Assembly (NCBI RefSeq): GCF_000022065.1
Contig: NC_011898.1
Coordinates: forward strand, 1,138,001 to 1,202,000
Direction of reading: 5' to 3'
Origin: Ruminiclostridium cellulolyticum H10
Lineage (GTDB): Bacteria > Bacillota > Clostridia > Acetivibrionales > DSM-1351
Length of the DNA stretch: 64,000 nucleotides
In this document: in pieces, positions 9,739-45,300 of the stretch
How positions within the stretch are numbered: position 1 is the first letter of the stretch
How the letters are laid out: each line of letters opens with the position of its first letter
Position numbers and translations under genes: made by a program
Notes under the pieces: generated by a model
What the model saw: only the letters and a program-made list of their open reading frames with translations
What the model was told of the DNA's origin: nothing
The model's database searches: none

Positions 9739-9748
9739 GGTGAGTATT

Positions 9749-20179: not shown

Positions 20180-22072
20180 ATGAAGGAAACTGCTTTAGTA
20201 TACATGCCATGGGCAACTACTACCATGCCATCGCTTGCTCTTGGATTGCTAAAAAGCGTACTTGAAAGAGAAGACATTCCAACAGATGTTTATTATTTGA
20301 ATGTTCGTTTTACTAAGTATATGGACAAGGTAATGTATGAAGAAATAAGTGAAATATGTGATGCATTTACCTTTGCAGTAGAATGGATGTTTGCACAATA
20401 TCTTTTTTCAGAAGAAAAAATGCGTGAAGGGAAAGTAAGCTATAGTAATTTAATATTACCCATTTTAAAAAGTGATCCTATATTGTACATGTATCTGAGG
20501 ACAAGAAAGGAAATAATTGAGCCGCTAATTAATAACATAATTCCCAAGTTTATAGAAGATTGTTTGAATGATATAGAATGGGGAAATTATAAGGTGGTAG
20601 GATTTAAGTGTATGATTGGGTATCAGGTATCCTCATTACTTTTATCGAAAAAAATTAAGGAACGCTACCCGGATATTAAAATAGTATTTGGTGGACCCAA
20701 TGTTAGAGAAGTTATGGGTGAAGAAATCCTAAAGTGTTTTGAATGGGTTGATTATGTAATAGATGGTGAGGGCGAAGAATCTCTTCCCGCACTCGTTAAG
20801 AATATTGCAAAAGATATACTGTACGAGGACATACCCGGAATTGTATATATGAAGGATGGAGAATGTATTCGCAGTAAGCAGTCGGCTAAAATGGCAGAGC
20901 TTGATGAGCTTCCAATACCTGATTATTCTGATTATTACATTGAGTTTCAAAATAATGATTTAAAAGAATTTTTACCTTCGATAAACAGCATTTTTGAAGG
21001 TTCTAGAGGATGCTGGTGGGGTGAAAAATGTCAATGTACTTTTTGCGGTCAATGTAACGGATATCTTAAATTCCGATCCAAGTCGACCGATAGGGTTCTA
21101 AATGAGGTTCTTGATCTTATAGAGAAGTATGATAACAAAAATTTCTGGGCAACGGACTGTATATTAAGCTTGGATTATTTTGATACCTTAATTCCTGAGT
21201 TGATAAAAAGAAAACTCGATCTGAATGTATTTTTCGAGGTAAAGCCAACACTAACACGAGAACAAATTAGTATGTTGTATGCTGCCGGAATAAGAAAATT
21301 ACAGGCAGGTATAGAAAATATAAATACAAGACTATTGAAATTGATGCATAAGGGTGTTAGTGCTATTCAAAATATTCAATTTTTAAAACTATGTACTGAA
21401 CAAGGCATATCGGTTTTCTGGATAATGCTATACAGAATCCCAGGCGAAGAAAAGCAGTGTTATGACGAAGTAATTAATCTGATACCTTCAATATCCCATT
21501 TGGAGCCACCTGCTCCAGGAAGGCTTTTTCCTATAAATTTGGATAGGTTTAGTCCTTATTTCAATGATCCTGAGAAATATGGAATAAAAGATATTAAGCC
21601 AAAAGCTATGTTTAACTTAATTTATCCAGATCCTAAAATTAATTTAAATAACATATCTTATGAATTTGATTTTACGTTTAATAAATCCGAAGAAACAGTG
21701 AAGCTCTACATAAACAATTTAAACACAGCTGTTACCAAATGGCAAAAGGCATATGAAAATAAAAAATACTACTGTTGGTACAGAGTAGAAAATGATGCGG
21801 TAGAAATAGAGGATAACCGTCCGATTGTAGCAGGTCAAGAATCGGATATCCATAGAAAATATACTTTAAAAGGTTTAGAAATGCAGGTTTTTCTCCTATG
21901 TAATGATATCTGTTCATTAGAAGATATTTATCGTGAGGTTAATAAAAACAGAGAGAAAGAGATAGGAAAAGATAAGCTGCAGGAGATTATCGGCTGGCTA
22001 AAGGATAATAAGCTGTTACTTGAGGAAACAGGAAGATATACTAACATGGCTCTCCTCAAAATATCAAAATAG
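20180..22072 (+). CDS. B12-binding radical SAM enzyme, RiPP-maturation type 1 family
   Basis: 630-residue enzyme. Residues 1-220 form a cobalamin-binding Rossmann-like domain (VFGGPNVREVMGEE, then DYVIDGEGEESLP). The radical SAM domain starts with SRGCWWGEKCQCTFCG, whose spacing CX7CX2C and GCWWG box match the RiPP maturation radical SAM protein 1 family. The C-terminal region (from about 520) is a helical PqqD-like or recognition segment. Enzymes of this type perform methyl transfers or other radical changes on peptides or carrier-bound substrates. No precursor peptide gene was found nearby, so an NRPS/PKS intermediate is the more likely substrate (inference). It opens the long plus-strand operon, with GGAGG upstream of the ATG. 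Confidence 0.8.
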   Translation: MKETALVYMPWATTTMPSLALGLLKSVLEREDIPTDVYYLNVRFTKYMDKVMYEEISEICDAFTFAVEWMFAQYLFSEEKMREGKVSYSNLILPILKSDPILYMYLRTRKEIIEPLINNIIPKFIEDCLNDIEWGNYKVVGFKCMIGYQVSSLLLSKKIKERYPDIKIVFGGPNVREVMGEEILKCFEWVDYVIDGEGEESLPALVKNIAKDILYEDIPGIVYMKDGECIRSKQSAKMAELDELPIPDYSDYYIEFQNNDLKEFLPSINSIFEGSRGCWWGEKCQCTFCGQCNGYLKFRSKSTDRVLNEVLDLIEKYDNKNFWATDCILSLDYFDTLIPELIKRKLDLNVFFEVKPTLTREQISMLYAAGIRKLQAGIENINTRLLKLMHKGVSAIQNIQFLKLCTEQGISVFWIMLYRIPGEEKQCYDEVINLIPSISHLEPPAPGRLFPINLDRFSPYFNDPEKYGIKDIKPKAMFNLIYPDPKINLNNISYEFDFTFNKSEETVKLYINNLNTAVTKWQKAYENKKYYCWYRVENDAVEIEDNRPIVAGQESDIHRKYTLKGLEMQVFLLCNDICSLEDIYREVNKNREKEIGKDKLQEIIGWLKDNKLLLEETGRYTNMALLKISK

Positions 22073-27828: not shown

Positions 27829-30800
27829 ATGGGAAACTCAAATAAAATAAGCAGACAAAATGTTGAAGATATGCTTCCATTGACTCCAATACAGGAGGGT
27901 ATGCTCTTTTACTACCTGACTGAGCAAAATAATGGTTTGTATTTTGAACAAATAAGCTTAAGGCTCACAGGCGACATAGATATTCAAAAGGTATATGAAG
28001 CATGGAGGTTCGTAATCAGCTCAAATGAAATGTTGAGAACAGTATACAGATGGAAAAACTTGGATAAGCCTATGCAGATAGTTCAGAAGAATTGCGAAAT
28101 TCCTATAAGAGAATATGACTTTTCTATAAATAATGATGAAGATAAGGAAAAGCTTGTTGAGGATTTAAAACAAAAAGATTTGAAGGAAAAAATAGATATA
28201 AGCAGTGAACCTTTCCGTATATCTCTATATAAGCTTTCCAAAAATGAGTATGAAATGATTATCAGCAGTTACCATATCGTTTATGATGGTTGGAGTAATG
28301 GTATTATACTCAAGGAATTTATGGAGGCATATAAGGCTTATTATTCGGGTAGTCAGCCTGTTAAGACTGTAAAGAACAAATATAAGGAATTTATAAAGTG
28401 GAGTTTGAAGCAAGATACAAATAAGCAGGAGGAGTATTGGAAGGAATATTTAAGAGATTTTGTCACCAAAACACCTCTTCCGGCGGATAACAAAAAATCT
28501 GGCAACCCTGATATGGCGAAGAACTTCATTACTATTTTGCCCGATGAATTGGGAGAAAGAATAAGGAGTTATGCAAGAGAACGAAATATTACGCTTGCTA
28601 CTCTGCTTTATTGTGCATGGGGGATTCTATTACAGAAATATGCAGATACTAGGGATGTAGTCTTCGGAACTACTGTTTCAGGAAGGACTCCAGAGATAGA
28701 AGGAGTCGATGAGATAGTAGGGTTATTTATAAATACGCTTCCGCTAAGGGTAAAGGTAAATGAGGGGGAACGTGTATCCGACCTCTTAAATAGGCTTGAT
28801 AATGATTTAAAACATAGAGCCGAGTTTGAACATACTCCGCTTACCACAGTTAATAGCTGTAGTGCTGTTGAAAGTAAAGAGGGTTTATTTGACTCCATTG
28901 TGGTTATAGAAAATTATCCTCTGGAAAAGGGACTTACAGATAACGGGGACGGTCTAGAAATTAAATTATCTTCTATATTTGAGATGACCAACTATGATAT
29001 TACAGTAGTAATATCTACCTTTGAAGAAATAGGCTTAAGATTCATATATGATGATAGGCTATTTAAGGAAGATAAAATAGAAAGTATAACAAACCATTTC
29101 AAAAATATACTAAGTAATATTGTTGAAAATGAAGATATAACAGTTTTGGCAATTAACATGCTGTCCGAGGAAGAGCTGAAACATATATTATTTGACTTCA
29201 ACAATAAAGGCTTAGAGTATCCTATAAATAAAACAATCCATCAATTATTCGAAGAACAGGCAGAAAAAACGCCGGACCGTATCGCAGCTGTACTTGAAGA
29301 TAAAAGTATTACCTATAGAAACCTAAATGAGAGGGCAAACCAGCTTGGAGCGTCATTATCTAAGAAAGGCTTGGGAGTCGGTGACGTCGTGGGAGTAATG
29401 CTGGAGCGTTCTATTGATATGTTGATAAGTCTGCTGGCTATTTTGAAGACAGGCAGTGCATACCTTCCAATTGACACAGGTACTCCTGCTGAGCGTGTAC
29501 TTTATATGCTCCGGGATTCTGGAGCTAAAATGGTAATAACAAGTAGTACCGCTATGAAGGATATAACATTCACTTCAATGCAGGGATTTGAAGCTAACGA
29601 GGATATACAGATTGTTCTAACAGGTGCAAGGGGACATATAAAAGAGTTTGATGCATTGCCAATTCCAGATAGATCACTAATAGATTTAACAAAATATAAA
29701 GGCAAGATAGGAATGGCAAGTATTAACAATTGTATTTCTGTGCAGACCACAAGGGGATGCCCATATATGTGCTTATACTGCCATAAAATATGGTCCAAGC
29801 ACCATGTCCGCAGATCTGCACAAAATATATACGATGAAATAGAGTACTACTATAAGAACGGTATTACAAATTTTGCCGTAATTGATGATTGCTTTAACCT
29901 TGATATGCAAAATAGCAGTGAAGTATTTAAACTTATTATTAAAAATAAAATAAAGATTCAGATCTTTTTCCCAAATGGTCTGAGGGGGGATATACTTACT
30001 CCGGATTATATAGACCTAATGGTTGAAGCCGGTACCAGAGGGATAAATCTATCCTTGGAGACTGCCTCACCAAGGCTTCAGAAGCTTTTGATGAAAAATC
30101 TGGATCTGAACAAATTTAAGCAGGTTGTAAACTATATTGCACAAAAGCATCCGGAAGTAATATTAGAAATGGCTACAATGCACGGTTTCCCAACTGAAAC
30201 CGAAGAGGAAGCCATGATGACTCTCAATTTTATAAAAGATATAAAATGGCTGCATTTTCCGTACATACACATTCTTAAAATATTTCCTAATACCGAGATG
30301 GAGGAATTCGCACTTGCAAATGGTATTTCTAAGGAAGATATAGTCAAATCTAAGGATAGAGCGTTTCATGAGCTTCCTGAAACACTGCCGTTCCCAAAGA
30401 GCTTTACCCGTAAATACCAGGCAAGTTTTATGAATGATTACTTTCTTTCAAAAGAAAGACTTAAAAAGGTACTTCCAGTACAGCTGATGGTACTTGACGA
30501 GGAGGCACTTGTACAGAAATACAATGCTTACCTGCCAGCCGAGATAAAAAACGTAAGTGATATAGTAAAGTTTGCAAAGCTTGATGATTTTGAAATACCT
30601 GAAAGAGGTGTTGAGAAAAATCAGGAGGGCTGTACTCTGTTTGACATACCACCTGCTGTAAGACAAAGAAAGCCAAAGGCTATGAAAATCTTATTCCTTG
30701 ACTTGTCCCAGCATTTCTCATCCCACAGCATGCTCTACAAGGTAGCAGAACAACCAATTGGACATATTTATTTGCTGACCTATTTAAAGCAGCAATTCGG

Positions 30801-33800
30801 AGAAAAAATAGACGGGAGAATTTATAAGTCAGGTAATGATTTTGACAGTTATAAAGAGCTAAAGGAACTTGTAGAGGATTTTCAACCTGATTTAATAGGA
30901 ATAAGGACTCTTACCTATTTTAGGGAATTTTTCCACGAAACTGTATCTCTGCTAAGACAGTGGGGTATAGATGCACCTGTAATAGCAGGTGGACCTTATG
31001 CATCAAGTGATTACGATACTATTTTGAAGGATGAGAATATAAGTTTGACAATACAGGGAGAGGGAGAATATACCCTTGAAGAGATTGTAAGTAAAATGCT
31101 AGTCAATAACTTTAAACTGCCTTCTGCTGAAGAGCTCCGAAGTATAAAGGGTATAGCATTTGCTGAACATCAGCAGAATTATCAGAATAAATCCCGAGAG
31201 GTTATACTTCTTGATGAGATGGGGGATAGTCTTGACTCTGAGAATACCTGTAATTTAAATATAGGTAGAAATAGCATTGTAAGCAGTACATATGAGAATA
31301 GCTTGGCTTATGTAATGTACACATCAGGCTCTACAGGTAAGCCTAAAGGGGTTATGATTGGTCACCGTCAGGTTAATAACTGCATTTTCTGGATGCAGGA
31401 TGAATTTAAGCTATCACAGGATGCGGTTATTGTTCAAAGGACAAATCTTACCTTTGATCCTTCAGTTTGGGAAATATTCTGGCCTCTATATATAGGTGCG
31501 AAGGTTAAGCTTATTACAGCAGAGCAGGCTAAAGATGCCGGGTATTTACTTGATTTAATGGCAAAGGATAACGAAATTACGATGATGTACTGTCCTGCAT
31601 CTCTTGTAACTGGTATGACGTATATGCTTAATGCCAGAGATAATAAACCAAGGCTAAGACTTCCTTGGCTGCTTATAGGAGCTGAGCCGATAGGTGTGGA
31701 AACTGTGAAAGATTTCTATAGATGCTTTGAAGGCAATATAGTTAATACATATGGTCCCACAGAATGTACTATTAACAATACATATTATCATATTCACAGG
31801 GATGATGAATTGAAAATAGTACCGATAGGAAGGCCTGTTGCAAATAACAAAATTTATATTCTTTCAAAGGACTTGCAGGCTGTTCCTATAAATGTGACAG
31901 GAGAGATTTTTATTGCCGGAGATAGTGTTGGAATAGGATATATCAACAACCCGGAAAAGACTATGCAATACTTTATTGAGAACCCGTTTGAAGTCGGAAA
32001 GCTCTATAAAACGGGCGATGTTGGAAGATGGCTCGAAAATGGCTGTATAGAAATCTTAGGTAGGGTTGACGAGCAGGTAAAGATAAGAGGTTATCGTATC
32101 GAACCGGGCGATATTCAGGCTGCAATGCTGGAATACAACGATGTAAAAGAAAGTGTCGTAATAGTAAGAGACAGTAAAAAGAAAAAAACTGAAACAAAGG
32201 TTTGTAAACTTTGCGGCTTAACCGACGAATATCCCGGGGTTAACATAAGTGATGACGGCGTTTGTGATATATGTCAGAACATAAGTGTATACAAGGGATA
32301 TGCAGATAAGTACTTTAAAGGCCTTGAGCAATTGGACAAGCTTATAAAGGAAAAAAATAAGGATAAGCAGAGCAAATATGACTGTTTATTGCTCTATTCA
32401 GGGGGAAGAGGAGCAGCAAATGCACTGTATCATTTAGTAGATATGGGATATAACGTATTGACAATTACATATGACAATGGATATTTTACAAAATCGGATA
32501 TTGAAAATATAAAGAGGATAACCACAAAGTTGGGTATAGATAATATTGTTCTTACCCATAAAAATACAGATAAAATTTTAAAAGAAAGCTGCAAGCATGC
32601 CAGTACGGTGTGCAGGGGCTGCTTCCATATATCTTCATCTCTTGCAGCAGAATATGCTTATAAGAACAATATTAAGGTAGTTGTGGGTGCAACATTATCA
32701 CGTGGACAGATACTTGATAATAAACTATATATGTTCTACAGACAGGGGATTTCAGATGTGGAGCAACTAGAAAAAGAACTGTTGAATGTTCAAAAAAGCG
32801 CCCGAGATATGGATAAAGATATTTTCGATCATATGGAAATAGATGTGATAGAAGAAGGTACTGTTTATGATACTGTTAAGTTCGTTGACTTTTACCGTTT
32901 CTGTGATATGACAAATCAAGAGATTATAGATTACCTAAGCAACAGGGATGAGTATTGGAAGACACGTAAGGATTATGCCATTTACTCTACCAATTGTCCT
33001 ATTAAGCAAGTTGGAGACCGTCTGCACTTGATAGAAAAAGGCTATCATTATTATGGTGCGGCTACAAGTTGGGAAAAACGAATCGGACACATTAGTCTGG
33101 ATAACCTGAAACAAGATTTAAATTGTAATGTAAGTGAGAAGGGCTGTAAAAACTTTTTAGATAAGATTCAATATGAAATTAAAAATTCTAATGACAAACT
33201 GGATAGTAAGTACATTTGTGCTTATTATACAGCAGACAAAGATATAGAAATGGGAAAGCTTAAGGAACATCTTGAAAAGTTCCTTCCGTCATACATGCTC
33301 CCGTCCTACTTTGTTCAGGTGGACAGCATACCTTTAACCTCAAACGGTAAGCTTGATAAAGATGCGTTGCCTGTTCCTAACGTTACTATAAGTTCAGGTG
33401 TTGACTATGTTGCACCTGAAAACGAGGTTGAGGAGAAGCTTGCTGAAGTGTGGCAAAAAGTGTTGGGTATGGATAAAATCGGTACAAATGACAATTTCTT
33501 TGAAATAGGTGGAAATTCCATATTGCTTATTCAGCTCCAGACTCAAATTGAAAGGATTTACCCGGGTAAGGTGTCTATAACGGATTTATTTGCATACACA
33601 ACCGTTTCAAAATTAGCTGAATTAATAGAAACCTGTAAGGGGTCAAATGTTAAGAACATACAGCTTGAGCAGATTTTCTTACCCGATGACTTCTTCATAG
33701 AAGCAGGCGGCAAAGAAGGTGCTGTCTTTAAATTCAACATAATGGGCGAAATACTTGAAAAGTTGAAGCAACTCTCTAAGGACAATAATATTGGACTCTA

Positions 33801-34257
33801 TGAGGTTATGTTATCAGTGTATATTTACGTTCTTTCTGAGATATCAGGGTTAAAAAAGGTGACAATACAAACGGATTTTGGCAGCGGTTCAGGCCTTTAT
33901 CAGCTTGAAGCTGATTTAAGTCAAATAACCGGCTTTGAAGATTTGTTTAAGCTAATAAATACTAAGAAGAAAACTTTGCATAAAGATGAGGCATATCAGC
34001 CTGATGAAATAAAAGCCCAAAGTATACCCAGAGAAAAAAATTCAGTTATTCCTCTTATCTACTCTGAAAAATCATTAATAGAAGGTATAAAATCATCAGA
34101 GCTTTTTGATATTGCTTTCGGTATTGATGAAAGTGATAATGATGTGACAATAGCTTGTGAGTATAGGAGAGGAAAGTTTAGAAAAGATAAGATAAAAGAA
34201 CTTGTCAACCGCTATGCACAACTGCTTGATGTAATTGCAGATAGTTGCAAGGTTTAG
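27829..34257 (+). CDS. NRPS-2: C, doubly interrupted A (B12/radical SAM + PP-loop), T, half-C
   Basis: 2142 residues. The C domain (1-450, YHIVYDGWS with catalytic His149) opens like D-donor (DCL) domains, fitting an upstream D-Asn. Adenylation core A1-A2 lies at 492-545. The first insert follows: a radical SAM domain (C644, C648, C651 in RGCPYMCLYC) and then a B12-binding domain (about 951-1080). Cores A3 (YTSGSTGKPKG, about 1162) to A8 (about 1408) continue. The second insert (about 1450-1785) is a PP-loop domain with a zinc-ribbon-like CKLC...CDIC and YSGGRGAANA at 1523. A9-A10 and the T domain (GGNS, Ser1897) follow. The last 200 residues resemble only the C-terminal half of a condensation domain. 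Specificity residues read D-P-W-Y-L-G-T-I-N, with no confident match. The frame is continuous through all of this. AAGGGGG lies 10 nt upstream of the ATG. Confidence 0.85.
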   Translation: MGNSNKISRQNVEDMLPLTPIQEGMLFYYLTEQNNGLYFEQISLRLTGDIDIQKVYEAWRFVISSNEMLRTVYRWKNLDKPMQIVQKNCEIPIREYDFSINNDEDKEKLVEDLKQKDLKEKIDISSEPFRISLYKLSKNEYEMIISSYHIVYDGWSNGIILKEFMEAYKAYYSGSQPVKTVKNKYKEFIKWSLKQDTNKQEEYWKEYLRDFVTKTPLPADNKKSGNPDMAKNFITILPDELGERIRSYARERNITLATLLYCAWGILLQKYADTRDVVFGTTVSGRTPEIEGVDEIVGLFINTLPLRVKVNEGERVSDLLNRLDNDLKHRAEFEHTPLTTVNSCSAVESKEGLFDSIVVIENYPLEKGLTDNGDGLEIKLSSIFEMTNYDITVVISTFEEIGLRFIYDDRLFKEDKIESITNHFKNILSNIVENEDITVLAINMLSEEELKHILFDFNNKGLEYPINKTIHQLFEEQAEKTPDRIAAVLEDKSITYRNLNERANQLGASLSKKGLGVGDVVGVMLERSIDMLISLLAILKTGSAYLPIDTGTPAERVLYMLRDSGAKMVITSSTAMKDITFTSMQGFEANEDIQIVLTGARGHIKEFDALPIPDRSLIDLTKYKGKIGMASINNCISVQTTRGCPYMCLYCHKIWSKHHVRRSAQNIYDEIEYYYKNGITNFAVIDDCFNLDMQNSSEVFKLIIKNKIKIQIFFPNGLRGDILTPDYIDLMVEAGTRGINLSLETASPRLQKLLMKNLDLNKFKQVVNYIAQKHPEVILEMATMHGFPTETEEEAMMTLNFIKDIKWLHFPYIHILKIFPNTEMEEFALANGISKEDIVKSKDRAFHELPETLPFPKSFTRKYQASFMNDYFLSKERLKKVLPVQLMVLDEEALVQKYNAYLPAEIKNVSDIVKFAKLDDFEIPERGVEKNQEGCTLFDIPPAVRQRKPKAMKILFLDLSQHFSSHSMLYKVAEQPIGHIYLLTYLKQQFGEKIDGRIYKSGNDFDSYKELKELVEDFQPDLIGIRTLTYFREFFHETVSLLRQWGIDAPVIAGGPYASSDYDTILKDENISLTIQGEGEYTLEEIVSKMLVNNFKLPSAEELRSIKGIAFAEHQQNYQNKSREVILLDEMGDSLDSENTCNLNIGRNSIVSSTYENSLAYVMYTSGSTGKPKGVMIGHRQVNNCIFWMQDEFKLSQDAVIVQRTNLTFDPSVWEIFWPLYIGAKVKLITAEQAKDAGYLLDLMAKDNEITMMYCPASLVTGMTYMLNARDNKPRLRLPWLLIGAEPIGVETVKDFYRCFEGNIVNTYGPTECTINNTYYHIHRDDELKIVPIGRPVANNKIYILSKDLQAVPINVTGEIFIAGDSVGIGYINNPEKTMQYFIENPFEVGKLYKTGDVGRWLENGCIEILGRVDEQVKIRGYRIEPGDIQAAMLEYNDVKESVVIVRDSKKKKTETKVCKLCGLTDEYPGVNISDDGVCDICQNISVYKGYADKYFKGLEQLDKLIKEKNKDKQSKYDCLLLYSGGRGAANALYHLVDMGYNVLTITYDNGYFTKSDIENIKRITTKLGIDNIVLTHKNTDKILKESCKHASTVCRGCFHISSSLAAEYAYKNNIKVVVGATLSRGQILDNKLYMFYRQGISDVEQLEKELLNVQKSARDMDKDIFDHMEIDVIEEGTVYDTVKFVDFYRFCDMTNQEIIDYLSNRDEYWKTRKDYAIYSTNCPIKQVGDRLHLIEKGYHYYGAATSWEKRIGHISLDNLKQDLNCNVSEKGCKNFLDKIQYEIKNSNDKLDSKYICAYYTADKDIEMGKLKEHLEKFLPSYMLPSYFVQVDSIPLTSNGKLDKDALPVPNVTISSGVDYVAPENEVEEKLAEVWQKVLGMDKIGTNDNFFEIGGNSILLIQLQTQIERIYPGKVSITDLFAYTTVSKLAELIETCKGSNVKNIQLEQIFLPDDFFIEAGGKEGAVFKFNIMGEILEKLKQLSKDNNIGLYEVMLSVYIYVLSEISGLKKVTIQTDFGSGSGLYQLEADLSQITGFEDLFKLINTKKKTLHKDEAYQPDEIKAQSIPREKNSVIPLIYSEKSLIEGIKSSELFDIAFGIDESDNDVTIACEYRRGKFRKDKIKELVNRYAQLLDVIADSCKV

Positions 34258-34284: not shown

Positions 34285-35574
34285 ATGGAAAGAGTAGCAC
34301 TTTTGTTTCCTGGACAAGGGTCTCAATATGCAGGCATGGGTAAAAGCTTGTATGACGAGTTTAAGGCAGCAAGACTAACATTTGAAGAGGCAAATGACGT
34401 ACTTAAGTTTGATATAAAAAGACTTTGTTTTGATGGGCTGTTGAGCGATTTATCTAAACCAGAGAATATACAGCTTACTTTACTTACAGTTTCTGTTGCT
34501 ACCTTTAGAGCATATATGGAGCAAGTTGGTATGAATCCTGTAATTGCAGCGGGGCACAGCTTGGGCGAATATTCTGCACTAACCTGCTCTGGAGCGGTTA
34601 GTTTCCCTGATATGCTTAAAATAGTTAATGTAAGAAGCAAACTATCACAGGAATTAGCTGATAGCGGATTAGGGGGTATGACGATTATTGATGGACTTGA
34701 TCCTGATGTTGTTGAGGAATGTTGCAGCTTAGTTTCTCGTCAAGGACATATCGTTACTGTTTCCTGCTACAACTCAGCTACTCAGACAGCTATCTCAGGA
34801 CATCAGAATGCAGTTATGGAGGCTGAAGATAAGCTAATTGAGCTGGGAGCACAGATAACGCCTATAATAGGTAGTGCACCATTTCACAGTGCAGTTATGG
34901 AGACAGCAGGTGAAAGATTAAAAGAGGAGCTTGGAAAGTATACTTTTAGAAGCTTTAATTTCCCTGTTATTTCAAATTTTACAGCACTTCCTTATGAGAA
35001 GCCGAACAGATTACCTGAACTGCTTCAGCATCAGATGTCCCACCCTGTTCAATGGCAGCGCATAATGAACTATTTAAAGTATAAAGGTATAAAAATAACC
35101 ATAGAAATAGGACCGCAGAATGTACTGCGGAATTTAGTGAAATCCAGCATAAATGGAATTGAGGCATTTTCTTTTGGGCAGCAGGAGGATAGGGACAGAA
35201 TTATAAAGGATGAGAGATTTTCAAAGAGGAAGGAAAGCATCGGAGAACAGGGCTCTGAGTTTATATCAATGTGTCTTGCTATGGCTGTAAGTACAAAAAA
35301 CCGAAACGATAATGTTACAGAATACAATAAGGGTGTAATAGAGCCCTACGAACGAATTGCAGGACTACAGCAAAGATTTAAAAAAGATGGGACTCAGCCT
35401 AAAATAGAGCAAATGTATCAGGCAGTTGAAATGCTCCAAACAGTATTACTTACTAAGAAGATTGATTTATCAATGCAGAAAATGATTTTCAATAATATTT
35501 TTGACCAAACAGGTACGCACAATCTATTCAGGGATTTAATATGTTTTCAGCCTAACGAAAGTCAGGAGGGATAA
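34285..35574 (+). CDS. Free-standing (trans-acting) malonyl-CoA acyltransferase, FenF-like
   Basis: 429-residue acyltransferase. It has LFPGQGSQYAGMG at the N-terminus, the active-site GHSLGEYS (Ser92) and APFHSAVM with the second catalytic His. Residues about 300-429 are an extra C-terminal segment like that of FenF from the mycosubtilin cluster. It should load malonyl units onto the ACPs of the two AT-less modules encoded next. It sits 2 nt before the first PKS gene, with GATGGGGTG ahead of the ATG. Confidence 0.85.
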   Translation: MERVALLFPGQGSQYAGMGKSLYDEFKAARLTFEEANDVLKFDIKRLCFDGLLSDLSKPENIQLTLLTVSVATFRAYMEQVGMNPVIAAGHSLGEYSALTCSGAVSFPDMLKIVNVRSKLSQELADSGLGGMTIIDGLDPDVVEECCSLVSRQGHIVTVSCYNSATQTAISGHQNAVMEAEDKLIELGAQITPIIGSAPFHSAVMETAGERLKEELGKYTFRSFNFPVISNFTALPYEKPNRLPELLQHQMSHPVQWQRIMNYLKYKGIKITIEIGPQNVLRNLVKSSINGIEAFSFGQQEDRDRIIKDERFSKRKESIGEQGSEFISMCLAMAVSTKNRNDNVTEYNKGVIEPYERIAGLQQRFKKDGTQPKIEQMYQAVEMLQTVLLTKKIDLSMQKMIFNNIFDQTGTHNLFRDLICFQPNESQEG

Positions 35575-35576
35575 AG

Positions 35577-38500
35577 TTGCTGGATTTTAATTCTGTTAAA
35601 AAGACCAAAAGTAACAAAAAAAGAATTATTGAGATTGAAGAAATTTCTGGTGAGGATATTGCTGTAATAGGAATGTATGCTAGACTTCCTCAGGCAGATG
35701 ATATAGAAGGTTTTTGGGATAACCTTAAAAACGGCAGAGACTGTATAACTAAATTTCCTGCTTCAAGGCGGAGGGATACAGAGAGTTATCTGCATTACAA
35801 GGGGAGTACCAAAAGAAATAGATATAGTACCGGTGCGTATCTTGAGGATATAGATAAGTTTGATAACAGTTTCTTTAATATAACTCCCAAAGAAGCAAGT
35901 CTTATGAGTCCGAACCAGAGGATATTTCTGGAGGCTACCTGGAAAGCAATAGAGGATGCCGGGTATGGAGGAAAGAAATTGGTTGGAAGTAAGACAGGAG
36001 TGTACATTGGCTTTGAAGCAGATGCTCCGTTTGATTATACACGGTATATTGAGGCATTTGATCCGAAATCAGTATCAGTTGCCGTAACAGGTAATCTTAC
36101 CTCGGTAATACCCAGCCGTATTTCATATCTTCTGGATTTAAAGGGGCCCAGTATATCGATAGATACTGCATGCTCATCTGCACTTGTTGCCGTTCATATG
36201 GCATGTAAGGGGATAAAGAACAAAGATTGCGAGATGGCGATTGTAGGCAGCATACGATTGAATTTTATGCCGATGGAGGGACAGCTAAACTTTGGAATAA
36301 ACGCCTCCGATGGCAGAGCAAAGACCTTTGATGACAGTTCAGACGGTACAGGAAGTGGTGAGGGGGTTATTACTTATCTCCTAAAACCTTTAAGCAGGGC
36401 TTTAAAAGATAAGGATAATATACATGCAGTTATTAAAGGAAGTGCAATTAATCAGGATGGAAGATCAATAGGCTTATCGGCACCTAATGTCCTTGCACAG
36501 GAGGATGTAATAGTTTCTGCCTGGAAAGATGCGGGCATAGACCCCGAAACAGTGTCATATATAGAAGCACATGGTACAGGTACTAAACTTGGAGATCCCA
36601 TTGAAGTAGATGGTATCAGCAGGGCATTTAGAAGATATACAAGTAAAAAACAGTTTTGTTCCATCGGATCGGTGAAAACCAATATAGGGCATTTGGATAA
36701 TGCGGCGGGAGTGGCAGGTATGCTGAAAGCAGTTCTATCACTTAAAAATAAACAGCTTCCGGCATCACTGCATTATAAAGTTCCAAACAGGAGAATTAAT
36801 TTTAAGGATTCACCTGTATATGTTAATGATAAGCTTACTCCTTGGGAAACACACGGATTTCCAAGAAGATGTGGAGTAAGCTCATTTGGATTTAGCGGGA
36901 CAAACTGCCATATAATTCTTGAGGAAGCCCCGTCAGTAGTTAATAAAAGTATTGATAGACCCTGCTTAGAGGTTTTAACTCTATCAGCTAAAACAAACGA
37001 TGCTTTAAAAGAACTCGTGAAAAGGTATAGATTATATATACAAAAAAACGAGGATGTAGATATAGGAAATATGTGCTATACACAAAATACCGGAAGGTGG
37101 CATTTCGACTATCGTATTGCTGTAATTGCAAGGAATACCATAGAACTTAAAAACAAGCTGGATAAACTTGTAAGTATAGATTTTGAGGATATCAACGAAA
37201 AAGAAATATACTTTGGAATTCAATTGGATAATATCAAACAGAAAGGACAAAACGGACTTTTTGAAAGCAAGATAAAAGAGCTAAGCTGCGAGGCTGATAA
37301 AAAGCTTGAAGAGTTTATTTTATCGGAAAAAACAGAAGAAGATGTATTATATGATATCTGCAAGAGGTATGTAGAGGGTGCGAACATTGACTGGGATATA
37401 CTTTATAAGGGAGAAGACAGGACTAGAATCAGCCTACCAACATACCCTTTCAGAAGAACAAGGTGCTGGATTAATGCGGAGGAGGGTTTAGAGAATGACC
37501 TCTTCTATGTAACTGCATGGGAAAGTAAAATATTGAAAAAGTCTTCAACTATAAAAGGCAGTGTATTGCTTTTTAGAGATAGTATCGGTAAAGCTGAAAA
37601 GCTGGTTGCAATACTAAGGGGGATGCAGGTCAATGTTATAGAGGTTGATATAGGCAGCAAATATAAAAAGATAAATAATAGCAGGTATCAAATATCCGCC
37701 TCTGCAAAAGCAATTCAAAGCCTGTTAAATGACATAGACATAAAGGATTTAAGGTATGTTATACACATGGCCTCTATTTCAGAAAGTAGTACCGAAGATA
37801 TCAGTATTTTAAAACAGAAGCTGCAAAATGGCATATATAGCTTGTATCATCTTCTTCAAGGTACAGCCAAGTTAGGTTTAAAGGATAGGCTGAATATTGT
37901 GGTAGTTTCAGAGTATGTAAATAAAATATGCGGTGAGGAAAATACTTTGAAGCCTGAAAATGCTGCAATGTTTGGTATGGGTAAGTCGGCATTCTGGGAA
38001 TATCCCAATATAAGCATAAGATGTATTGATATTGACAGAGACACAGATATATCGGTAATTGTTCCTGAGATATCTGCGGAAGGGGTTGAATTCTGCACTG
38101 GATATCGAAATGGTAACAGATATGTGGAGATAATAAAACAAGCAAGTATTGAGAATAAGCTTTTAGATATAAAAGAAGAAGGAGTTTATGTTATAACAGG
38201 CGGTGCAGGCGGACTGGGTATTGAATTTGCCAAAAGACTTGTTTTAAGGAACAGAAGGGCTAAGCTTGCATTTATTAACCGTTCAAAGCTGCCGGAACGC
38301 AACGATTGGGATGCAATATTGGCTTCCGGTTCAGATGAAAAAATGTGCAGACTTCTCAACAATATAAAAGACATGGAAGCTAGAGGAGCTGAGATTACTC
38401 TCCTAAGTGCTGATGTTTCAGAGTTTGAAGGTATGAAGGTGGTAATATCAGAGCTAAAAAGAAGATATGGAAATATTAATGGAATAATTCACAGTGCCGG

Positions 38501-39395
38501 TATATCCAAAAGGGATGAGACTGAGGAAGATCTAAGAGCTGTATTATCTCCCAAAATTGAAGGGGCTTGGATACTGGACAGACTCACTCAAGAAGAAAAC
38601 CTTGACTTTTTCGTAATGTGTTCTTCAGCTATTACCCTTATAGGGGGGCTTGGAGGCGGAGGATACACTGCTGCTAACGCATATCTTGATTCATTCTCGG
38701 CACAAAGAAGTAGTCAGGGAAAGCGTACCCTTGCAATAAATTGGGCGGCATGGGAAAACACTGGGCTGGCTGAAGGAATGACAATAAACGAAGATAAGGA
38801 GCTATTCAGAGTACTTTTGCCTGAAAATGCATTAGATGCATTTGAAAATGCTTTGAATTCAAATCTGGATAGAGTAATTATAGGAGAACTTAATCTAAGC
38901 AGCACAATATTAAACCTTGGGGAATACTTGCCTTTCAGACTTTCTGACAACTTAAAGAAAAATACTATAGAGAAAACCGTACAAGAAGAAGAGCAGTTAA
39001 AAGATATAAAGTTAAAAGGTAAAGAAGAGCAGGATTATACAAAAACTGAGGTGTTAATAGCAAAGATATGGGGAGAGGTACTCGGATTTGAAGAATTTAA
39101 TGTTAATGATAATTTCTTCACACTGGGAGGCGACTCTATAATGATTACACGAGTTGAAACTCTTCTTGAGAAACATTACCCGGGAAGAATTACAATATCT
39201 GAGCTTTTTGCCTATCCGACAATTTCAAAGCTGTCTCAATATCTGAGTTCGTCACAAATAAGCGGTAAGGAAGCAGATACTGGCGAAACCGAGCTAAGAG
39301 ATAGTATTTTTAAGCTATTTGAGGACATTAGAGCAGGTAGCCGGAATATAAGTAGTGCAATAAAATATTATGATTCATTAGAGGTGAGACGATGA
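35577..39395 (+). CDS. AT-less PKS module KS-KR-ACP
   Basis: 1272 residues. The KS (about 20-455) has the active Cys199 in DTACSSALVAVH and the two His in EAHGTGT and NIGHLD. There is no AT domain; it is presumably served by the adjacent free AT. A KR (about 850-1130) has VITGGAGGLGIEF and GGGYTAANAYLD with the catalytic Tyr, but lacks the LDD motif (SKR there), so stereochemistry is not predicted. The ACP (about 1150-1225) carries LGGDSIMI (Ser1187). It would extend the NRPS-2 aminoacyl chain by C2 and reduce the ketone to a hydroxyl. The start is a TTG at 35577 with AGGAGGG 6 nt upstream. It overlaps the next gene by 4 nt (ATGA). Confidence 0.85.
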   Translation: MLDFNSVKKTKSNKKRIIEIEEISGEDIAVIGMYARLPQADDIEGFWDNLKNGRDCITKFPASRRRDTESYLHYKGSTKRNRYSTGAYLEDIDKFDNSFFNITPKEASLMSPNQRIFLEATWKAIEDAGYGGKKLVGSKTGVYIGFEADAPFDYTRYIEAFDPKSVSVAVTGNLTSVIPSRISYLLDLKGPSISIDTACSSALVAVHMACKGIKNKDCEMAIVGSIRLNFMPMEGQLNFGINASDGRAKTFDDSSDGTGSGEGVITYLLKPLSRALKDKDNIHAVIKGSAINQDGRSIGLSAPNVLAQEDVIVSAWKDAGIDPETVSYIEAHGTGTKLGDPIEVDGISRAFRRYTSKKQFCSIGSVKTNIGHLDNAAGVAGMLKAVLSLKNKQLPASLHYKVPNRRINFKDSPVYVNDKLTPWETHGFPRRCGVSSFGFSGTNCHIILEEAPSVVNKSIDRPCLEVLTLSAKTNDALKELVKRYRLYIQKNEDVDIGNMCYTQNTGRWHFDYRIAVIARNTIELKNKLDKLVSIDFEDINEKEIYFGIQLDNIKQKGQNGLFESKIKELSCEADKKLEEFILSEKTEEDVLYDICKRYVEGANIDWDILYKGEDRTRISLPTYPFRRTRCWINAEEGLENDLFYVTAWESKILKKSSTIKGSVLLFRDSIGKAEKLVAILRGMQVNVIEVDIGSKYKKINNSRYQISASAKAIQSLLNDIDIKDLRYVIHMASISESSTEDISILKQKLQNGIYSLYHLLQGTAKLGLKDRLNIVVVSEYVNKICGEENTLKPENAAMFGMGKSAFWEYPNISIRCIDIDRDTDISVIVPEISAEGVEFCTGYRNGNRYVEIIKQASIENKLLDIKEEGVYVITGGAGGLGIEFAKRLVLRNRRAKLAFINRSKLPERNDWDAILASGSDEKMCRLLNNIKDMEARGAEITLLSADVSEFEGMKVVISELKRRYGNINGIIHSAGISKRDETEEDLRAVLSPKIEGAWILDRLTQEENLDFFVMCSSAITLIGGLGGGGYTAANAYLDSFSAQRSSQGKRTLAINWAAWENTGLAEGMTINEDKELFRVLLPENALDAFENALNSNLDRVIIGELNLSSTILNLGEYLPFRLSDNLKKNTIEKTVQEEEQLKDIKLKGKEEQDYTKTEVLIAKIWGEVLGFEEFNVNDNFFTLGGDSIMITRVETLLEKHYPGRITISELFAYPTISKLSQYLSSSQISGKEADTGETELRDSIFKLFEDIRAGSRNISSAIKYYDSLEVRR

Positions 39396-42300
39396 GCGAG
39401 GTTACCCGTCTGGTTTTTGAAAATGTTATATCAGGGAAAATTGAAGAGGGCGTAGGGGTTGAGCTGCTAGAATCGTTAAAGATTAATGGGAACAAAAAAT
39501 ATAAAGATGTAGCTATTATAGGAATTTCTGCAAAACTACCTAACGCAAATGATATAGATGAATACTGGTCAAATCTGGAAAAAGGGGTTGACTGTATAAG
39601 ACCTTTCCCTCCATCAAGGAGAAAGGACGTAGAAGGTTTTATACTTCATTATACTAGTGCTAAAAAGGGAGAAATAAAATATAGCCATGGAGGTTTTCTG
39701 GACGAAGTAGATAAGTTTGATTACAAATTCTTCAGACTATTACCAAAAGAAGCAAATACAATGGACCCAAACCAGAGATTATTTTTGCAGACTGCCTGGG
39801 AAGCTATAGAAGATGGTGGCTATGGAGGGGGAAAGCTTACGGGCAGCAAGACCGGAGTATATTTAGGTTATGATAACTGGCCCATATACGGTCAATACAT
39901 ATCAAAAACTTCTCCCTCTCAGGTTATGACATCAGTAGCCGGTAATGTTACTTCTGTTATAGCCAGCAGAATATCTTACCTCTTGGATTTAAAAGGTCCT
40001 GCGGTAATTATGGATACAGCCTGCTCCTCCTCACTTGTAGCACTTCATATAGCCTGTCAGGCATTAAGGCAGAATGAATGCGAACAGGCAATTGTAGGAG
40101 GAGTAAAGCTAAACCTTCTCCCTGCCGAGGGAATATTAGAAATAGGGCAGGAATCAAAGAACCACAGAATAAAAACCTTTGATGAGGATTCTGATGGATT
40201 TGTCTGGGGAGAGGGTGTGGCTGCCATACTTCTTAAGCCTTTGGACAAAGCACTAAGAGATAGGGATAATATCTATGCTGTTATTAAGGGAAGTGCGATT
40301 AATCAGGATGGGAATTCAGTCGGAATAGCTGCACCTAACGTACTTGCACAGGAAGAGGTTATCTTAAATGCGTGGAAGGATGCGAATATAGACCCAGAGA
40401 CAATTTCTTGCATTGAAGCTCATGGTACAGGAACACGGATAGGAGATCCAATAGAAATTGATGCAATTCAGCGTGCATTTAAAAGATATACGGAGAAGAA
40501 GCAGTTCTGTGCTGTCGGTTCAGTCAAAACCGCAATAGGGCATTTGGATAATGTTTCAGGAATGGCTGCATTGATAAAGATGATTTTAGCTATGAAAAAT
40601 AAAAAAATACCTGCCCACTTAAACTTTAAGAGTCCAAACCATAATATTCATTTTCACAAGTCCTCTGTTTATGTAAACAGCCAATTGAGTAATTGGGAAA
40701 CAGATGGACCTATGAGGTGTGGTATAAATTCGTTCGGTATAAGCGGAACGAACTGTCATGTTATTTTAGAGGAGGCGCCTTCTTATGAGAGACAGGAGCC
40801 AATAGATAAGAAGCTTAAGGTTCTGGCAATATCAGCGAAAAGTTCGGAAGCATTACAAGAGCTTGTAGTAAGGTATGAGGATTTTCTTAATAAAGGATAC
40901 GACATTAATTTTGACGACCTTTGCTACACTGCCAATACTGGGAGAGGACACTATAATTATAGGCTGGCCTTAATATTCTACGACGAGGCTGATTTAAAGA
41001 AAAAACTGAGAAGTATAAATGTAAATTCTTTAAAAAAGTTAAATCAAAAGGGAATCCACTTTAATATCCATAAGGTAATTAATGAAAGTACCGAGCCGAA
41101 AAAAGGAGAATTGACTACCAAGGAATTACGAGAGATTACAAAGGAAGCGGATTTGGTACTTAGAAATTTCATTGAAAAAGAAGAGCAAAGTGAAGATATT
41201 TTAAATGAATTATGTACTTTGTATGTACGTGGTGCTGAAATTAAATGGGAAGATCTTTATAAAGATGAAAACCTAAGAAGGATGAGACTCCCGGTTTACC
41301 CCTTTGAAAAGAAACGGTGCTGGATAGATACTACTTTAAAGACTGATGAAGCAAATATCTCTGTAAATAACCAAAAGTCTGAAACTATTAGTGTTGCACA
41401 AGAACAAATAATCGATAAAACTGAAGTACATATGCAATTTAATCGTAAAGATGGAATTATTAAAAAGCTTAAGAATATAATTAAGAATTCTTCAGGTATG
41501 GAACTTTCTGAAATAGATATAACTGCTAATTTTTTTGAAATGGGTTTCGACTCGGTACTTCTTATTCAAGTAAGACAAGGCATCAAGGATAATTTTTTAA
41601 TAGATGTGACAATGAGGCAATTTTTAGGAGAACTATCCTCATTAGATAGTCTTGCAAACTATATAGAACAAAATTTGCCTAATGAAGTTATCATTGAGCC
41701 TATTAATAATTCTGATATATGTAATCCTCAGGAGAAGGTTACTAAGCCGGAGCCGGAGATAGCACAGAATATTGCACCTGACAATGAAATCAAGCAAATT
41801 GTAGACCAGCAACTAAAGATTATGCTTCAACAGTTGGAGCTGCTTAAGGGAGGAAATAGCCCTGCCACGACACAAAGTAAAGTTGGCGTAGCTGAAGTGG
41901 TGCAGAGAACAGAGAATCTTACTGCAGAGAAGACCCCAAATTTAAGCCAGAATACAAACAGAGAGGTTTTTGTTCCCTATAAAAAGCTTGAAATAAATAC
42001 AAGAGACTTTTTTAGCCAAAAGCAGAGTGAGCATATTAAGACTCTGATGGACAACTACTGTAAACGTACTGCACAATCCAAGAAACTTACTCAAGAAAGT
42101 AGGTATAGGCTGGCCAACAATAGAAATGTAGCCGGTTTCCGTCCTGATATTAAGGAAATGGTGTACCAGATTATCGCAGAGAGGGCATCAGGTTCCAAAA
42201 TATGGGATGTAGATGGCAGAGAATATATTGATATATCAATGGGCTTTGGTGTTTATCTTTTCGGACATAATTCAAAATTCATAACAGATTCTGTGGAAGA

Positions 42301-45300
42301 GGAATTAAAAAAGGGTACACCATTGGGGCCAATGTCAAGGCTTGCAGGAGAGGTTGCTGCTTTGGTATGTGAAATAACAGGAATGGACAGAGCAGCTTTC
42401 TATAACTCTGGAACCGAAGCAGTTATGGTAGCTCTTAGAATTGCAAGGGCAGTTACGGGAAAAAAGAAAATTGTTATATTTGCAGGATCTTATCATGGAA
42501 CCTTTGATGGTGTGCTTGCAAGAGCACATACGGCATCACAGGAACCAAAGGCTGTGCCTATTGCCCCCGGTATACCTCAGAATATGGTCGAAGATGTAAT
42601 GATACTTGACTATAATGACAAACAATCATTGGAAATAATAAGAAGACATTCTCATGAACTGGCAGCTGTACTTGTAGAGCCTGTACAAAGCCGCAGACCG
42701 GACATTCAGCCTAAAGAATTTCTGCAACAGCTTAGAAAGCTTACCTGTGAAATGGGTGTAGCTCTGATATTTGATGAAATTATCTCAGGCTTCCGCATTC
42801 AACCTGGAGGAGCACAAGCGTGGTTTGGAATTGAGGCGGATCTTGCTACCTATGGAAAGGTTGCAGGTGGAGGGATGCCTATAGGTATTGTTGCGGGAAG
42901 ATCTGAGTATATGGATGCTATTGATGGTGGAATGTGGAGATATGGAGATGACTCATACCCAGGGTATGACGATAAAAGAACTTTTGTTGCCGGAACATTT
43001 TGTCATCATCCGCTTGCAATGTCAGCGGCAAAGGCTTCACTAAACTATATTAAAGAGCAGGGAGAAGAATTACAGAATAAGCTGAATGAGCGAACCGCTT
43101 ATCTGGTAAAAAAGCTTAATAAGTATTTCGAAGATAATGAATTGCCTATTTATATGGTAAATTATGGTTCGCTATTCAGATTTGTACTTAAGGGAGATAT
43201 AGAGCTGTTATTCTATCACCTTATAAAAAGAGGGATATACGTATGGGAAGGAAGAAATTGCTTCCTCTCAACTGCACATACTGATCAGGATATAGAGTAT
43301 ATAATCAGTGCAACTATAGATAGTATAGAAGAAATGAAAGCCGATGAGTTTCTTACGAATTCTCCTGCGAAAAATGGAAGCGGAACATCTCTGAATAATA
43401 TTAGTATGCCCCTTGCAATCAGTAATGAATTCAAAAACAACATACCCTGTAAAGAAGAAAATATAGAAAAAATACCTTTAACACAGGAACAAACGCAGCT
43501 ATGGTTTCTGGTACAAAGTGATATAGATGGACAAGTGGCATACAATGAAAACTCAATAATAAAACTTCGTGGGGATTTGAATTTTGACATTATGTATGAC
43601 GCGTTTAAGCAAGTAATCAAGCGGCATGAGGCTTTGCGTACCACTATAGAAGTTGAAGGGAATAATCAGATTATTCATCCTGATATTAGTTTAGATATGC
43701 CGCTGATTGATTTTAGTAACTTGAATAGTATAGACCGCTATGAAAAAATAGGGGAATGGCTTATTGAAGAGGGAAAAAAGCCATTCGATCTGACAAAGGG
43801 ACCACTATTCCGAATCAATATCCTAAAAGAGGGACAACAGGAACATACTCTGTTTTTTGCAATACATCATATTATTGCAGACGGCTGGTCGACAGGAATT
43901 TTGGTGAATGAGCTGGGCGAGTTGTATACTTCGGGAGTCAGAAGGAGAGATAGCAAGCTTCCAAAACCAGTTCAGTTTAAGGAATATATTTCTTGGCAGG
44001 AGTCCCAAAAAACTAGTGCTTCATGGGCTTCAGCACGAGCTTTTTGGAGAGAACAGTTTGCGAAAGCAATTCCAATGACAGAACTGCCATGTGATTACCC
44101 TCGCCCGTCTGGCAGGACATACAGGGGTGCAAGATACCATTTTTCTCTGGAAAATTCATTATATACAGCTTTGAAGACAATAAGTGCAAAAGAGCATGGC
44201 ACTCTTTACATGACAATGCTTGCAGGATTCAATTTGCTTCTTCACAGGCTGTCCGGGACAGAACAGGTAGTAGTAGGGATACCATCAGCAGGTCAGTCGA
44301 TGATGGGATCGGGGAGACTGATAGGCCAGTGTGTAAAAATGCTTCCTGTTAATAGCTGTATAAATAATAGCATTACTTTTTCAGAATACCTTGGAAATAT
44401 AAAAGAACTACTTATGCAAAGCTTTGAGTACCAAAATTACTCGTTTTCAGACTTGGATGACGACCACGAAGCGGTGCATATTCCTCAAATAACTGTGATG
44501 TTTAATATGGATCGTCCTTTGGATGCCCCCGGCTTCTATGGTCTTGAGGCGGAGATACTTCCGTATCCAATCAGCTTTGTACAGTATGATTTAGGAATAA
44601 ATGTGGTTGAAATAGAAAAACAGCTCCAAATAGATTTTGATTACAATACAGACCTATTTGACGCCAAAACTGTAGAACTATGGGCAGAGTACTTTAAAGC
44701 CTTGCTTTTGGAGATATCAAAAAAACCCAACGATTTGATTTGTACCTTTTCGTTAAATAACCAAGAAAGAATAAATAATACCGTTAAGTATGAGAAATGT
44801 AGTGAATTGATACATATAATGTTTGAGAAAATAGCTGAAAACAATCCCGCAGCTATTGCTCTCGATTTTGGTACCAAAAAAGTAACTTATAGTGAATTAT
44901 ATCTCAGGGCAACCCAAATAGCATCTTTGATTACTAAAGAGGGAATAGGCAGGCTTACAGCAATATATGTTAATGATATCACTAATATGACAGCCAGCAT
45001 ACTTGCATCTATGAAAAGTGGAAATCCATATATTCTGCTGGACAAGAATTTCATAGATTACAAACTTGATGATATAGAGCTGATGATTACAGATAGTGAA
45101 ATAACAACTGGAAAAGCTGTAGAAATACGCATTGGAAAAGAGCTGTCAAACGTTGAAAGCATACATGAGCTGAATGCTGATATAAAACCGGATGATCTGA
45201 TGTGTCTGGCACATATACAGCACGAAAAAGGAGAAACGGAAAAACTGGGTATTTCCTATAAACATGCTGCAATTCGTTGCTCAGAAATGAAGGATAGGCT

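Follow-up and report, generated by a model that had tools for sequence, protein, structure and literature searches.

In a 64,000-nucleotide window of Ruminiclostridium cellulolyticum H10 (NC_011898.1, positions 1,138,001 to 1,202,000), a nonribosomal peptide synthetase (NRPS) gene at 27829..34257 of the window, on the plus strand like the two genes that follow it, runs without an internal stop and encodes a 2142-residue protein whose adenylation (A) domain is interrupted twice. A cobalamin/radical S-adenosylmethionine (SAM) unit with permuted domain order lies between core motifs A2 and A3, and an AANH/PP-loop domain that has lost its ATP motif lies between A8 and A9. Double-insert A domains of this kind are a recurring, patchily distributed module type, and the observation, originally predicted from this one sequence, stands more strongly than when first claimed. 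With confidence somewhat above even, we read the protein as an NRPS module of a hybrid polyketide synthase (PKS)/NRPS cluster in which the permuted radical unit would modify the loaded residue and the AANH insert would perform no ATP chemistry of its own.

The core A motifs form a complete set in the correct order and in a single frame, as had been predicted, starting at residues 494 (A1), 539 (A2), 1164 (A3), 1209 (A4), 1306 (A5), 1358 (A6), 1393 (A7), 1411 (A8), 1819 (A9) and 1839 (A10) and falling into three blocks (A1-A2, 494-549; A3-A8, 1164-1425; A9-A10, 1819-1844). The corresponding pieces of the domain cover residues 465-584 (29221..29580), 1145-1450 (31261..32178, with the specificity code DPWYLGTIN) and 1790-1850 (33196..33378, with the NGK lysine present). 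Pfam splits the AMP-binding match into two stretches, and AMP-binding_C at 1789-1841 scores 23.9 bits, slightly below its cut-off of 24.5. An insert-free A domain encoded in the same window by gene 13326 runs without a break from A2 to A3 and from A8 to A9, and both inserts of the 2142-residue protein map to the corresponding loops of that domain.

The first insert occupies approximately residues 588-1123 (29590..31197), limits that were estimated from free-standing relatives, and at about 540 residues is close to the block of roughly 600 that had been proposed. It carries the radical SAM core PF04055 (residues 639-802, 29743..30234; Pfam 1.5e-18) with the expected CX3CX2C motif inside it (CPYMCLYC at residue 644, 29758-29781), followed by the B12-binding domain PF02310 (residues 976-1086, 30754..31086; 1.9e-9, 37.8 bits for a cut-off of 32.1). 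This order, radical SAM first and B12 last, is the reverse of that in class-1 cobalamin radical SAM enzymes and was missed by the original prediction, as was the PP-loop motif SGGRGA of the second insert in place of SGGxDS. In BLAST alignments with a canonical free-standing relative (L037:2789-4291), residues 8-192 of the relative align to 950-1131 of the window protein and residues 162-460 to 580-878; both free-standing relatives at this locus (the other at 6447-8006) have the B12 part at the N-terminus. CX3CX2C is kept in all 8 aligned rows, the window protein among them. In a 70-core radical SAM tree whose bootstrap had not fully settled, a 100/100 branch separates the 50 permuted cores from the 20 canonical ones, and the eight double-insert rows cluster at 98/77.

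The permuted order also exists outside A domains. Eight free-standing permuted proteins (L093-L097, L102 and L105), 545-628 residues from stop to stop, start no more than 76 residues from the radical SAM match and end no more than 32 from the B12 match, near the limits of the insert. That of L105 ([Clostridium] polysaccharolyticum) adjoins A-nitroreductase and A-T proteins (T, thiolation) and that of L102 an AMP-binding protein and LuxE, with no AMP-binding-type neighbour among those tested in L093 and L096. The records of L093-L097 and L102 are marine alphaproteobacterial, Pelagibacter and SAR324. The canonical linker (residues 162-192 of L037:2789-4291) matches both ends of the insert in BLAST, which fits a tandem duplication that circularly permuted the enzyme as it was captured into the A domain. 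Free-standing permuted enzymes exist, however, and a tree with all inserts as one clade separate from them was not rejected (p-AU 0.321), so that the permuted enzyme may have been either free-standing or embedded first.

The second insert, the predicted PP-loop block of about 330 residues (approximately 1457-1789, 32197..33195), had no match at 1e-3 in a whole-protein Pfam scan. A search with the insert by itself gave NCBIfam TIGR03573 (N-acetyl sugar amidotransferase) over nearly the full length at 8.5e-21, with 74.7 bits under a curated cut-off of 203.2, and Pfam QueC at 1.7e-4, slightly below the cut-off; the solved structure 8wex matches it at 1.9e-5 over profile positions 15-103. The ATP motif SGGxDS is lost in ten of ten double-insert rows. 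At residues 1524-1529 (32398..32415) the window protein reads SGGRGA, shared with L064, L066 and L162; genomes G036 and G054 have SGGKGS, L065 has NGGRGA, L067 and L068 have AGGRGA, and L161 has ACERVA, where the two glycines are gone as well. All 12 single A8-A9 inserts retain SGGKDS, and all 17 free-standing or C-terminal relatives retain [ST]GGxDS.

The cysteines of the second insert were kept. A triad, C1595, C1598 and C1723 (32611..32997; spacing 3 and 125), and a zinc-finger-like set upstream of it (C1459, C1462, C1479, C1482) are present in 10/10 doubles, as is C1519. The triad is also found in 12/12 single inserts (C1723 being confirmed in L163 and L167, whose profile matches were split) and in the four aligned free-standing relatives; the first four cysteines occur in 11/12 single inserts, L166 beginning after the first pair, and in three of the four free-standing relatives (not L025). 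A tree of PP-loop domains, in which rows L163 and L167 cover no more than the first part of the domain, separates the 22 A8-A9 inserts from the remaining rows by a 100/100 branch and does likewise for the 10 doubles. In the AANH enzyme CtaC, changing the motif aspartate or serine (D77A, S78A) abolished activity (PMC6772006). The ATP-dependent step that the original prediction had assigned to this insert is therefore not supported, while its other half, a radical alteration of the amino acid, agrees with the intact CX3CX2C motif and the cobalamin unit. An ordinary ATP enzyme was accordingly rejected as a description of insert 2 in the window protein, which has SGGRGA and not SGGxDS.

Complete double-insert A domains were found in eight places (the window, G036, G054, L064, L065, L067, L068 and L161) and partial ones in two: L066, which is cut at the 5′ end, and L162, whose contig starts inside the A domain and which is assigned to the doubles by its code and by the PP-loop clade in which its insert groups. 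Further hosts are metagenome-assembled genomes (MAGs) binned as Acidobacteriota (L064), Halothermothrix (L065, L068), Bacteroidales (L067) and Aminicenantes (L066, and L161 from the genome of L071); L162 comes from the genome of L069, whose own insert falls among the doubles. Among 60 related genomes, full-length relatives of 2150 and 2137 residues, stop to stop, occur in G036 and G054, with 60% and 59% overall identity to the window protein and 74% and 72% in the first insert, and a relative in G037 is cut by the contig end. Across seven relatives, identity to the window protein is 77-86% in the radical SAM core, 64-77% in the B12 domain, 56-67% in A3-A8 and 57-67% in the PP insert, so that conservation of insert 2 is comparable to that of the A core. 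A search of 58 genomes of the order placed PP inserts between A8 and A9 in G000, G008, G035, G036 (two loci) and G054, and G040 has a PP domain at the end of an NRPS protein. In a sample of 398 genomes of the phylum, the window's own was the sole match at 1e-30; a draw of 297 genomes from the phylum to which G461, an Aminicenantes MAG, belongs gave 4 matches at 1e-25, and 7 of 12 genomes of named loci matched.

A contig scan with insert 1 confirmed at least 529 places, of which the best 80, in 79 loci, were kept as a sample and not a census. Within these loci, 43 places have radical SAM followed by B12 in one open reading frame: 19 between A2 and A3 without a PP insert, two more at A2/A3 with the later part cut before A9, four in doubly interrupted A domains plus one cut at the 5′ end, four cut after the insert, three between A10 and T, two after a stray A1-A2 piece and before T, and eight free-standing. 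The loci with the unit between A10 and T are L076, L077, L079, L082 and L098, the stray A1-A2 piece coming first in L077 and L098. In a FastTree of the A3-A8 parts that included a random draw of 45 insert-free A domains, and in which the row of the downstream A domain of L162, wrongly labelled as a double, is to be disregarded, 6 changes are needed to explain the PP-only label, 2 of them forced by starred branches, and 15 to explain the radical SAM-only label, 7 of them so forced. Inserts therefore probably moved between A domains, or were lost from them, more than once.

Other combinations were met along the way. L165:3330-8051 (G460) has a methyltransferase (PF08242, 1.8e-13) at A2-A3 and a PP-loop domain at A8-A9 with an Asn-type code, a natural double interruption. 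At L026:4558-10239 (minus strand; 2.854-2.860 Mb of the genome from which the window comes), another A domain of this genome is interrupted by a B12/radical SAM unit in canonical order. The unit lies directly ahead of A1, with ...TPDSIAVCF on one side and FTYRELNEKANQLA on the other, a position absent from the passages available of the reviews cited below. A same-genus relative of 809 residues, L172, has an insert at the equivalent place, and its A domain ends shortly after A2.

Specificity codes were read at positions that we take to be those of PheA, with amino acid assignments that are likewise presumed. All 10 doubles share the code DPWYxGTxN, with F replacing W in L067. Complete codes are available for ten single PP inserts (L059, with an incomplete code, and L166, with A3-A8 off the contig, were excluded, and L090 and L167 count as one locus), which have the Asn-type DLTKxGEVG in seven cases, the Gln-type DAQDIGVVD in two and another code in one (L060). 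A single-insert Asn module of this kind is found in Desulfosediminicola flagellatus (L092:17617-21633). Asn or Gln codes thus make up 9/10 in this group and 9/107 among the insert-free A domains of the same loci, a contrast for which we claim no probability, since the rows share ancestry and are not independent. Of the 20 A domains whose only insert is the radical SAM unit, six have a Thr code, three an Asn code, three a Pro code and two an Ile-like code, and the rest are spread over six other codes; Leu is among the codes seen. The tag DPWYxGTxN together with both inserts should find clusters that make one particular building block, and the single-insert cousins predict on-carrier editing of the side-chain amide of Asn or Gln.

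In the mechanism that we propose, the A domain would adenylate one particular amino acid, that of the DPWYxGTxN code, and load it onto its own T domain. The embedded unit would then act on the T-bound residue, forming a radical at a carbon that is not activated and transferring a methyl group, or carrying out some other radical reaction of cobalamin, before that residue is handed on. Insert 2 would derive from an ATP-using AANH enzyme whose own ATP chemistry was abandoned, and would persist because its fold and its metal centre still serve, whether structurally or by supplying metal, electrons or sulfur. A radical step in the window protein is well supported at the sequence level: since the CX3CX2C motif in the cobalamin/radical SAM unit is intact, the loaded residue is most likely altered by radical chemistry. 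Several points weigh against this mechanism. The nearest families by score include the non-methylating BchE and AprD4 alongside PhpK-type methylases, so that methylation is a default and not a result; no relative of the permuted unit turned up among biochemically studied enzymes; cobalamin and Fe-S binding by insert 1 are predictions; and the B12 domain of the L161 double scores 25.9 bits, under the Pfam cut-off of 32.1. In addition, the shared code has no assigned residue, the code positions and assignments are themselves presumed, and the MAG bin names may be wrong.

Among the other readings, the one in which the radical SAM unit dehydrates, rearranges or couples in the manner of AprD4 or BchE, or acts on an upstream intermediate, partly overlaps with ours and is a serious if lesser possibility. 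It would explain why the best solved-structure match to the insert-1 profile (1.1e-11) is 6fd2, presumably AprD4, an apramycin oxidoreductase, with BchE and PhpK types scoring alike, and the wide spread of codes among radical SAM-only inserts is what one would expect of a unit indifferent to any single side chain; the B12-binding domain present in insert 1 argues the other way, as does methylation being, in the passage available, the commonest cobalamin radical SAM reaction (PMC11659888). Should the radical SAM unit alone matter, insert 2 would be a purely structural remnant. The loss of its ATP motif is in line with this, as are the many A2-A3 radical SAM inserts that do without a PP insert (19/43 in the loci kept, besides the two cut before A9), but we think this unlikely, as a remnant would be expected to lose both the 57-67% identity and the seven cysteines that ten of ten doubles keep.

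It is also improbable that both inserts are ordinarily catalytic, with radical methylation at one site and, at the other, an AANH domain that spends ATP to form a thioamide or an amidine. CtaC, an AANH enzyme, does thioamidate a peptidyl-T substrate using ATP and an Fe-S centre (PMC6772006), insert 2 keeps seven metal-type cysteines, and its SGGKDS-bearing single-insert cousins, related rows though they are, mostly carry Asn or Gln codes; the motif loss in every double, extending to the glycines in L161, and the inactive CtaC D77A and S78A variants stand against it. Joining of separate genes by assembly has next to no probability: nothing was found in its favour beyond several relatives being MAG contigs, all 4,068,724 bases of the window genome lie in one contig, and the identical fusion recurs at both sites in independent assemblies. 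We rejected it on these two grounds, and with it the fusion artefact that the original prediction had named as its possible undoing.

A bolder variant, which we consider very improbable, is that the AANH ATP motif became dispensable, with activation coming instead from the A domain, as adenylate or as thioester, or from a carbon radical made by the radical SAM unit, and with the AANH Fe-S centre delivering sulfur or electrons. A precedent in the HUP fold is offered by the cyclodipeptide synthases, which lost the HIGH motif and are predicted to use pre-activated aminoacyl-tRNA (PMC2922099). If true, a single A domain would select, activate and radically functionalise a residue, for instance by C-H thiolation or methylthiolation. 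Our preferred reading, a permuted radical unit acting on the loaded residue beside an AANH insert that has given up ATP, would bring radical cobalamin and AANH chemistry into the set of A-domain inserts, would show a cobalamin radical SAM enzyme functioning with reversed domain order, and would offer peptide assembly lines a transferable module with which C-H bonds of selected residues could be functionalised.

A condensation (C) domain (residues 12-453, 27862..29187) that keeps the second His and the DG of HHxxxDG (SYHIVYDG at 147) precedes the A domain, and a T domain (PP-binding; residues 1869-1933, 33433..33627, GGNS at 1894) follows it. Pfam matches a second Condensation stretch in the protein. 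The C-terminal tail of about 200 residues (33646..34254), which other modules of the same genome match jointly with A9-A10 and T, is probably part of a condensation-family domain, giving C-A-T with a partial condensation-like tail. A discrete acyltransferase (AT; 34285..35574) is the next gene, followed by a PKS with ketosynthase (KS), ketoreductase (KR) and acyl carrier protein domains (35577..39395), and AT and KS modules continue downstream in the window. At eight of the 10 double-insert loci a KS gene comes directly after or a few genes on, those of L065 and L067 being called by similarity, and none was seen nearby for L068 and L162. Upstream gene 13326 encodes C-A-T plus a second condensation-family stretch, with an Asn-type code, and is conserved in G054 (51%) and G036 (49%). 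Sugar-nucleotide and glycosyltransferase genes and a beta-lactamase-fold gene also lie upstream, the last adjoining the relatives in G036 and G054 as well. Beyond the window, downstream, are genes for an Asp decarboxylase (PanP), another NRPS, a RaSEA-like radical SAM protein, a free PP-loop protein, hydroxyacyl-CoA and acyl-CoA dehydrogenases and FkbH; the dehydrogenase/FkbH set recalls methoxymalonyl supply.

Further radical SAM and interrupted genes share the region. Within the cluster, upstream, 20180-22072 encodes a radical SAM C-methyltransferase of the type of ribosomally synthesised and post-translationally modified peptides (TIGR03975, 7.3e-236), and in 39392-50611 a nitroreductase-type oxidase (Ox) domain interrupts another A domain at A8-A9. 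The radical SAM proteins of window 4326-5636 and L025:10377-11747, 65% alike, are nearest, below cut-off, to RaSEA of archaeosine (that is, amidine) biosynthesis; in L025 a free PP-loop gene follows the RaSEA-type gene, and a 42%-alike relative (L059:9143-10474) adjoins the single PP insert of G008. Just upstream of gene 13326, 6133-13299 holds a phage-defence-like row of a TerB-domain protein, a BrxC/BrxD-type ATPase and a DEAD helicase.

Known interrupted A domains carry methyltransferase (MT), Ox, KR or monooxygenase inserts, mostly at a8-a9 and sometimes at a2-a3 or a4-a5, according to the passages available of three reviews (PMC11355689, PMC8949500, PMC8097286), in which neither a radical SAM nor a PP-loop insert is named. 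The use of these same two sites, as had been predicted, is borne out by the first two, and the passages of the first describe the a2-a3 plus a8-a9 combination as engineered only and embedded M domains as working on T-bound substrate (PMC11355689). No description of the insert pair was found in the open-licence PMC literature, in keeping with the original prediction; the census of interrupted A domains by Lundy et al. 2020 lies outside that scope, and a possible earlier mention there is the main doubt on novelty. The variant appears new among interrupted A domains, occurs in several bacterial lineages and may build an unassigned peptide building block. Like TioN and MarQ (a2-a3) or TioS and KtzH (a8-a9), the window protein holds an auxiliary enzyme within one A domain at these sites (PMC11355689, PMC8949500), but both sites are filled, one by a cobalamin/radical SAM unit and the other by an AANH domain, where the known cases have an MT, Ox, KR or monooxygenase. 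Insert 1 shares with the class-1 cobalamin radical SAM enzymes (OxsB, TsrM, TokK; BchE and PhpK families) a PF02310-type B12 domain and a PF04055 core with CX3CX2C, whereas its B12 domain is not N-terminal as in that class and the unit is embedded in an A domain. A B12 domain C-terminal to the core is found in Mmp10/DUF512 (class 2), given in a 2025 review as the sole characterised enzyme with this order; its B12 domain has a different, four-stranded fold (PMC13331322), and that of insert 1 matches PF02310. Insert 2 matches TIGR03573 (WbuX; solved relative 8wex) nearly full length, but below cut-off and with the ATP motif lost. With CtaC, the closthioamide thioamide synthetase, it shares the AANH superfamily and a CxxC with a distant cysteine, at a spacing of 3 and 127 in CtaC (C154, C157, C284) and 3 and 125 here. 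CtaC is free-standing, acts on a T-bound substrate with essential Asp and Ser and has many homologues near NRPS genes, most in anaerobes (PMC6772006), whereas insert 2 is embedded in the A domain and has lost the motif.

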